From assembly GCA_017405445.1 (NCBI GenBank), contig JAFRAK010000040.1, forward strand, positions 1-63,088: a stretch of DNA of 63,088 nt. The letters run 5' to 3'. How positions within the stretch are numbered: the stretch's first letter is position 1; each line of letters opens with the position of its first letter. The position numbers were made by a program, and so were the translations under genes. Source of the stretch: Bacilli bacterium. Lineage in GTDB: Bacteria; Bacillota_I; Bacilli_A; RF39; UBA660. This document shows positions 44,027 to 45,291 of this stretch, piece after piece. The notes beneath the pieces are model-generated. The model was not told the DNA's origin, ran no database searches, and was given only the letters and a program-made list of their open reading frames with translations.

Positions 44027-44620
44027 TTAATGATAAAAATTAGAGATAAACTTTGCAAATTCATATAATATAATAGCACTTTTATTAATTGCAAAGCTCT
44101 TTCCTATTGCTTTCCCACCAATAGTTAAAGAAGCAATAACAGCCGCAACAACCAAACCTGTTATAAGTAAATTAAAATGATATTGATTCACTAATATAGC
44201 AGTAATTGTAGTTCCTGCAGCACCAGATATAATACCACAAATATCTCCAATAACGTCACAACAAAAACTAGATACTTTATCAGCATTTTTCTTAAACATA
44301 ACTGCAACATTTGCACCCTTTACTTTTCTAGAATTCATAGAATGAAAAACTGCTTCATCAGCACTAGTTACAGAAACTCCAATAATATCAAATAAAATAC
44401 CTAAAAATACAAAAAACAATGTAACAATAATTCCTAAAAATAAAGAAAGATTAGGAATTGTCATCTGACAAATAAAAGAAAAACCAAAAGATATTAGAAA
44501 AGATATCCCAACAATCGTAAAAATCCATTTCCAATTCACAGTTTCTTTTTTTATTTTTTCTTTTTTTCTAGTTTGTTCTAATAAATTACTAAACTCACTA
44601 GGTTTACTATTTTTTTTCAT
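44027..44620 (-). CDS. OapA-like DUF21-type membrane protein (OLE RNA partner)
   Basis: A 197-residue protein with a charged N-terminus and four membrane helices (about 30-50, 57-82, 128-150, 155-178). The segment GVSVTSADEAVFHSMNSRK and the helix CCDVIGDICGIISGAAG resemble the DUF21/CorB-like membrane domain of OapA, the protein that binds OLE RNA. It lies immediately downstream of a ~600-base structured transcript at 44650-45256, the same order as ole-oapA in other Bacillota. GAGGTGAC precedes the ATG. The assignment rests on context and on the family pattern as remembered, not on an alignment. Confidence 0.6.
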   Translation of the reverse strand: MKKNSKPSEFSNLLEQTRKKEKIKKETVNWKWIFTIVGISFLISFGFSFICQMTIPNLSLFLGIIVTLFFVFLGILFDIIGVSVTSADEAVFHSMNSRKVKGANVAVMFKKNADKVSSFCCDVIGDICGIISGAAGTTITAILVNQYHFNLLITGLVVAAVIASLTIGGKAIGKSFAINKSAIILYEFAKFISNFYH

Positions 44621-44649
44621 AAGTCACCTCAATATAACTATTATAACAA

Positions 44650-44672
44650 AAAAAGTAGTAAAACTACTTTTA
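44650..44672 (-). terminator. Terminator of the large RNA
   Basis: AAAGTAGT/ACTACTTT stem followed by TTTT on the minus strand, 30 bases before the OapA-like gene; readthrough would reach that gene. Confidence 0.8.
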
Positions 44673-45256
44673 TCTTTTATCGAATTGTTTGGCGATCAAT
44701 AAAGTAAACTTTGAGCCTTAGGTCAAGTTGGTTTTCCCTAATTCTTACAAATCCGTTACCAGATTTGCGGTTCCCCTTTAATAGAATTAATATGGCGTTT
44801 CCACACATACGACTTGATTACCACTTAGTGCCCACTGCAATCCTTTATTGAAGTACACCCTAGGAGATTTCCCCCCCAACACTTTATTATTAATTCTCTT
44901 TTGCAAAAATAATTTCAGAAGTAAACCATTTCATAATAAGCGGCCTCTTACTAAGAAACTAAACATTCATCCCAATATTTTCACTCAAGACAGGCTACAC
45001 TGCACATAACTTGCGCCACAATACAGGTTTCACCCTAATTCGTAAAAAACTCATTTTTCACAAGAATAGGTCTCCGCGAATAGTGGGTCGTTTTTGTATG
45101 CCATTACAAATAGCCCAGTATTCTCATCTTCAGCATCCACCCCAAACTGGGCGTAAGAAGCAGACACCAAAGGTTTCATAGATATGCCCTTTAACGATCT
45201 TTTAAACTCGTCTTCCTAATAAAGTAATTGACTAGAATAATGTGCCATCAATTACG
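44650..45256 (-). ncRNA. ole: Large structured RNA, probably OLE RNA
   Basis: Roughly 600 bases with no open frame on either strand, bounded by a strong promoter and a hairpin terminator. Its GC content is higher than the surrounding AT-rich spacers, and it has G-rich single-strand-like blocks (TGGGGGGGAAATCTCC, GGTGGATGCTGAAGATGAG) and local stems such as GCCCAGT/ACTGGGC at about 45114-45151. Length, position just before an OapA-like gene, and lack of tmRNA ends or RNase P cores favour OLE (ornate large extremophilic) RNA, which assembles at membranes with OapA. The alternative is another large RNA class. Confidence 0.6.
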
Positions 45257-45262
45257 TAGATA

Positions 45263-45291
45263 ATTATACCACTTTTTTGCCAAAAAGTCAA
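45263..45291 (-). promoter_or_regulatory. Strong promoter of the large RNA
   Basis: TTGACT at 45291-45286, 17-base spacer, TATAAT at 45268-45263; among the best sigma-A matches in the window. Confidence 0.85.

Follow-up and report, generated by a model that had tools for sequence, protein, structure and literature searches.

The window, by which we mean the whole 63,088-nucleotide stretch of DNA analysed here, carries an OLE RNA gene (ole) and, a short distance downstream, a gene whose product we assign to the OLE-associated membrane protein OapA (Table 1). A cmscan of the entire window against Rfam 15 returned OLE (RF01071) as its sole non-tRNA match. Its score of 392 bits stands against a gathering score of 50, the covariance check that the sequence-only reading of this DNA had proposed. 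That reading had described a non-coding transcript of ~600 bases. The match spans 592 nt, is complete, has every domain of the Rfam model represented, P7 and P8 included, and contains no ORF of at least 60 aa (45264-44673).

The signals flanking the RNA largely bear out what had been read from the letters. Specifically, the promoter that had been called strong agrees with the sigma-A consensus at 11 of 12 positions and is among the two best-scoring sites of the region. It ends at 45263, and so transcription is predicted to begin at most a few bases from where the OLE model match has its 5' end. At the other end, the hairpin and U tract of the claimed terminator are present; its strength is another matter. 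The hairpin is worth -8 kcal/mol (z -1.6 versus shuffles), and it is missing from the list produced by the terminator scanner, which requires three G-C pairs. Because the hairpin is both weak and unlisted, termination at 44670-44645 is plausible but not strong. The 3' end of ole lies 52 nt from the oapA start codon (44620), and the U tract ends ~25 nt from it, close to the 30 bases first estimated. Promoter, ole, terminator, and oapA all occupy the minus strand.

The neighbours of this pair recur in related loci. The 237-aa ORF that directly follows oapA is found in that position in 28 of 45 related loci, and it is a candidate for a functional link to the OLE complex in this lineage. The ABC-F-type gene is kept near ole-oapA in 33 of the 45 loci, and the glucosaminidase-like gene near ole in 27. 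These neighbours differ from the isoprenoid, DNA-repair, and sporulation genes that usually surround OLE (PMC12265935).

Table 1. Features of the ole-oapA locus, in window coordinates.
Feature	Position	Strand	Basis or remark
Glucosaminidase-like secreted protein, upstream of ole	46054-45353	-	Pfam match just below cut-off
Putative sigma-A type promoter of ole	45291-45263	-	TTGACT-17 nt-TATAAT, TG before -10; sequence only
OLE RNA gene (ole)	45264-44673	-	RF01071, 392.2 bits, E 1e-111, model 1-616
P4 hairpin, A-rich loop (UUUAAAAG)	45193-45212	-	Dimer contact in published cryo-EM structures
J4a/5, one kink-turn strand, AUC-UAU-GA	45176-45183	-	Columns 84, 85, 89, 90 in 36-38/38
P5, loop GCCCA	45127-45173	-	Dimer contact with L6
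P6, loop AUGGCA	45078-45123	-	Dimer contact with L5; bS21 region in H. halodurans
J6/7, other kink-turn strand (k-turn 1b, cryo-EM model), GGAGA	45071-45075	-	37-38/38
P7	45034-45070	-	Present; shorter than in close relatives
P8	45000-45026	-	Present
P9 arm, palindromic loop AGGCCG	44894-44991	-	GGCC kissing loop, dimer contact
Hairpin with UGGUAACG loop, P13 region	44747-44768	-	OapB site in H. halodurans
Probable intrinsic terminator of ole	~44670-44645	-	A/T-rich hairpin + U tract; fold
oapA, 197-aa membrane protein	44620-44027	-	ORF; AlphaFold2 model, four long predicted helices
DVIGD, DxxxD motif of OapA, residues 122-126	44257-44243	-	Homologue alignment
237-aa ORF, directly after oapA	43989-43276	-	No Pfam/NCBIfam match
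ATP-binding protein, two ABC domains (ABC-F type by sequence)	43222-41624	-	Next downstream after the 237-aa ORF

The RNA bears the marks of a structure under selection. When the Rfam structure is projected onto the window RNA, 138 of 155 scorable pairs are canonical. Across a covariation alignment of 38 sequences, 87.7% of the cells are paired, a percentage that is biased upward since the structure derives from the window's own Rfam match. That bias does not account for the excess of double changes. Specifically, both sides have changed in 91 of the 155 pairs, versus 52.9 in shuffled alignments, with none of 500 shuffles as high. Double-change cells number 483, versus 143 in column-shuffled alignments and 75-105 in controls with a slid partner strand. 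Therefore, the OLE structure is maintained by selection.

Conservation is equally evident in loops and junctions. The P4 loop is UAAAA or UAAAC in 65 of 65 full-length relatives, and L5 (CGCCCAG), L6, and the palindromic L9 are each kept in 64 of the 65. The window RNA is thereby predicted to satisfy the dimer contacts made by the A-rich L4, by L5/L6, and by the palindromic L9. In the P13 region, the GGUAAC loop occurs in all 38 aligned sequences and in 63 of the 65 full-length members. Kink-turn 1b, composed of J4a/5 (AUC-UNU-GA) and J6/7 (GGAGA), is almost invariant (36-38 of 38); kink-turn 1a, composed of J4a/5 and J5/6, is conserved in part, with G at column 144 in 27 of 38. The CCUCCU anti-Shine-Dalgarno mimic in P6 appears in none of the 65 full-length RNAs of the family, the window's included.

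The protein encoded downstream had been read as a DUF21-like four-helix protein, a description that its structural model matches. An AlphaFold2 model built from 27 aligned sequences (mean pLDDT 86) places helices at residues 30-57, 60-86, 113-147, and 151-179, in a CNNM/CorB-like fold. Its best matches in the PDB are CNNM proteins, namely MtCorB (7m1t and 7m1u, Z 15.0 and 14.0, 130 residues, 2.2 A) and 7cff (Z 12.8), followed, far lower, by an entry at 7.5. The best E-value from plain Foldseek is only 8e-3. The MtCorB structure 7m1u is likewise among the top matches of the predicted Halalkalibacterium halodurans OapA (PMC11332333). With respect to sequence, no family in Pfam or NCBIfam passes its cut-off, so the competing membrane family that could have overturned the OapA assignment did not emerge. 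CNNM (PF01595) gives no match to the window protein at E 0.001, and a PDB sequence search with the OapA profile found nothing. The OPT family was considered and rejected: it scores 20 bits versus a cut-off of 25.8, and the fold gives it no support. Close homologues are 53-80% identical, and both D122 and D126 are kept in 104 of 104 OapA homologues. The DxxxD motif is the feature that separates OapA from CNNM transporters (PMC11332333). The assignment of the 197-aa protein as OapA, with a CNNM-like fold lacking CBS and CorC domains and with four predicted transmembrane helices, is supported by the model, the motif, the position downstream of ole, and a distribution confined, within the family, to OLE-bearing genomes.

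That distribution was examined from both sides. A search with OapA yielded 45 relatives, all of them MAGs of Bacilli or Firmicutes type, many of which come from the gut of ruminants or rabbits. With the window's genome counted, 45 of the 46 genomes obtained through OapA contain OLE; in the one exception, G033, oapA lies ~210 bases from a contig end. In the fetched loci, OLE is nearly always located just upstream of oapA, typically by 37-97 nt with a few larger gaps, in keeping with the claim that the two are normally neighbours. A genome set fetched through OapA is biased by its own selection, and a second set of 60 was drawn by OLE. OapA is present in all 60, within the fetched stretch in 58 and slightly further off in G068 and G188, and it is absent from 20 of 20 family genomes that lack OLE. 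Within this bacterial family, the co-occurrence of OLE and OapA is strict. More broadly, 119 of the 193 genomes of the window's order carry OLE, the other 74 having no match, and in a sample of the wider class all 28 OLE matches fall in the window's own family. The relatives are gut Bacilli-type MAGs and genomes of the family measure ~0.6-1.9 Mb, which agrees with the small-genome gut host proposed from the sequence. While that reading regarded such a host as unexpected, a 2024 paper had reported OLE from gut bacteria of RF39 and TANB77, which mostly lack OapB and OapC (PMC11332333). RF39 is the likely order of the window, judging by kinship between genomes, small genome size, and the variant-2-like OLE of the same family.

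Several loci depart from the usual layout. In G068 and G188, both of genus g22 (loci L083 and L088), other sequence separates the two genes and oapA lies ~1 kb further downstream; their genus mates G134 and G234 show the usual ole-oapA adjacency. Loci L013 and L045 have ole-oapA gaps of ~550-610 nt, and in L046 (1-288, 2071-2595) the 3' part of OLE lies ~1.8 kb upstream of oapA. Finally, genome G008 has two OLE copies, one complete and a second on contig C3 (L047:2956-3424) that is truncated by the end of the contig. The 5' part of this second copy (P1-P4) is unrecognisable, and a promoter-like sequence directly precedes P5. It may represent a relic, a chimera, or contaminating DNA.

OLE complexes of the H. 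halodurans type include helper proteins, and in these the window's lineage appears to differ from them. No L7Ae-family protein of the OapC type (L7Ae/YbxF) scores over the cut-off in any of 46 genomes, whereas the same search detects one in the Bacillus subtilis control; the genome that the window comes from is a draft, 71.6% complete, in 57 contigs. For the KOW protein OapB (YbzG), a search of 16 genomes with a general KOW model, uncalibrated with respect to OapB, gave above the cut-off essentially only matches that are L24- or NusG-like by length and context. The site before infA, usual for OapB, holds no extra gene in the relatives in which infA was found; the preceding gene is adk or map. 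OapB is thus probably absent from the lineage.

The kink-turn residues are conserved even though no OapC-type protein is encoded in the 46 genomes, which suggests that the kink-turn has a role beyond OapC binding. The simplest readings are that the kink is kept because the tertiary structure of the RNA needs it or that another protein holds it. A protein-free cryo-EM structure of OLE shows the kink (PMC12286853). Ribosomal protein bS21 is a candidate holder because it induces the kink-turn in H. halodurans OLE (PMC12054373), yet all 65 full-length RNAs of the family lack its CCUCCU mimic in P6. bS21 is present in 41 of 46 and in 73 of 80 genomes, and in the window's genome at G000:C10. The idea that its presence tracks the form of OLE was ruled out: it is near-universal, including in mini-OLE (described below) and OLE-lacking genomes. 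Thus, its presence says nothing specific.

We put the probability at roughly 94% that the window holds a true OLE RNA gene, probably a working one, accompanied by its obligate partner oapA. By analogy with H. halodurans and Clostridium OLE, the ole transcript would fold and dimerise through the P4, P5/P6, and P9 loops. Published work on the same organisms suggests that an OapA dimer would then dock the RNA on the membrane in a 2:1 arrangement, and that the complex may aid in handling stress connected with Mg2+, cold, alcohol, or carbon source. Here, the complex seems to do without OapC and probably also without OapB, its kink-turn region presumably held by RNA tertiary contacts or by some other protein.

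The lack of OapC and the failure to find OapB could instead be taken to mean that OLE is a decaying relic, no longer working in a small-genome gut symbiont. The shortened P7 of the window RNA, relative to close relatives, and the 74 genomes of the order without an OLE match point in the same direction. Against decay stand the strong covariation, the invariant loop and junction residues, the intact promoter sequence, and an oapA that is intact in every OLE-bearing genome examined and missing from the OLE-lacking ones. We regard decay as improbable.

Less probable still is the idea that the protein is an ordinary CNNM/DUF21 ion transporter, akin to the Mg2+ exporters MpfA and CorB, with the RNA serving as its long structured leader. 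The window protein does share its predicted membrane-domain fold with MtCorB, PF01595 scores weakly on its homologues, and the RNA sits just upstream on the same strand. At 197 aa, however, the protein leaves no room for CBS and CorC domains; it falls below the PF01595 cut-off, and it possesses the OapA-specific DxxxD motif. Genes for true MpfA-like proteins (open frames >330 aa, PF01595 >130 bits) exist separately in 3 of 46 genomes, a count that agrees with the published anticorrelation (PMC11332333). The RNA, moreover, is a defined OLE, and the intervening sequence in G068 and G188 suits a leader poorly. Finally, chance or an assembly artefact, for which the fragmentation of the draft genome might speak, is refuted by the number of independent genomes involved, with the ole-oapA arrangement in dozens of independent MAGs.

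Beyond the window, OLE in the family occurs in three length classes: full (~540-630 nt), short (~480-535 nt), and mini (378-381 nt). P7 and P8 are missing from the short forms, which in this resemble the published variant 2 and which score 205-250 bits; in one example checked at residue level (L085), the apical arm of P9 is also missing. Mini-OLE is found in G071, G079, and G569, which span two genera (L116:319-696, L117:313-693, and L147 on the minus strand). In these RNAs, P5-P8 are replaced by one stub hairpin of six to seven pairs directly after P4. The stub is followed by P9 with a GAUC loop, domain 2 is kept, and oapA lies immediately downstream. Mini-OLE scores 134-139 bits with the Rfam model; the 2024 survey applied a 235-bit floor with its own OLE model (PMC11332333). 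We found no published description of mini-OLE in a literature search beyond whose reach most subscription papers lay.

The tree of OapA orders these forms. Across its 96 rows, which omit two short-OLE g22 genomes whose OapA lies outside the fetched stretches, the form labels need 3 changes versus ~29 when shuffled. The full-length and variant-2-like forms make up essentially two clades: the window falls within a supported clade of 38 rows, all of the full form, while the mini form, with two rows, makes up one clade within the short group. Repeated, independent loss of P7/P8 had been suspected, as genera g22 and g41 hold both score classes; the 3 label changes argue instead for mostly one split. 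Our notion, to which we give somewhat better than even odds, is that the family presents a natural deletion series of the OLE complex with full-length, P7/P8-less, and mini-OLE branches. On the window's branch, the full-length RNA and an intact kink-turn would persist without OapC. On the sister branch, P7/P8 would have been lost, and within it a small clade would have arrived at a ~380-nt mini-OLE, which would lose the mapped bS21 and kink-turn region along with the L5/L6 dimer contacts.

Set beside known systems, the window locus is a clear new example of the OLE-OapA system and not a new system. It shares with the full-length OLE of H. halodurans and Clostridium acetobutylicum all Rfam domains, the loop and junction sequences, the dimer-contact loops, a promoter of its own, and oapA immediately downstream; it differs from them in the CCUCCU mimic lacking from P6 and in a lineage without OapC and apparently without OapB. 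With the variant 2 OLE of RF39 gut bacteria, the connection is one of genome kinship, variant-2-like forms being present in the window's family, and of the published lack of OapB and OapC that the lineages share. Variant 2, in contrast, has neither P7 nor P8 (PMC11332333), and the window RNA has both. From known OapA proteins, which it resembles in size, four long helices, DxxxD motif, CNNM-like fold, and strict co-occurrence with OLE, the window protein differs in nothing of substance that we could see.

Taken singly, the locus offers an unexceptional, well-supported ole-oapA pair, in a type of host from which OLE has been reported before. The kink-turn without OapC and the mini-OLE are details that add to the published picture. 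With OapA always present, the OLE forms of the family can help to distinguish the requirements of the RNA and OapA from the contributions of the helper proteins. Mini-OLE would also give structural studies of the unresolved domain 2 a conveniently small construct. If the deletion series is true, it would define the minimal core of OLE and would indicate that what selection keeps is OapA, the P4 contact, and domain 2.
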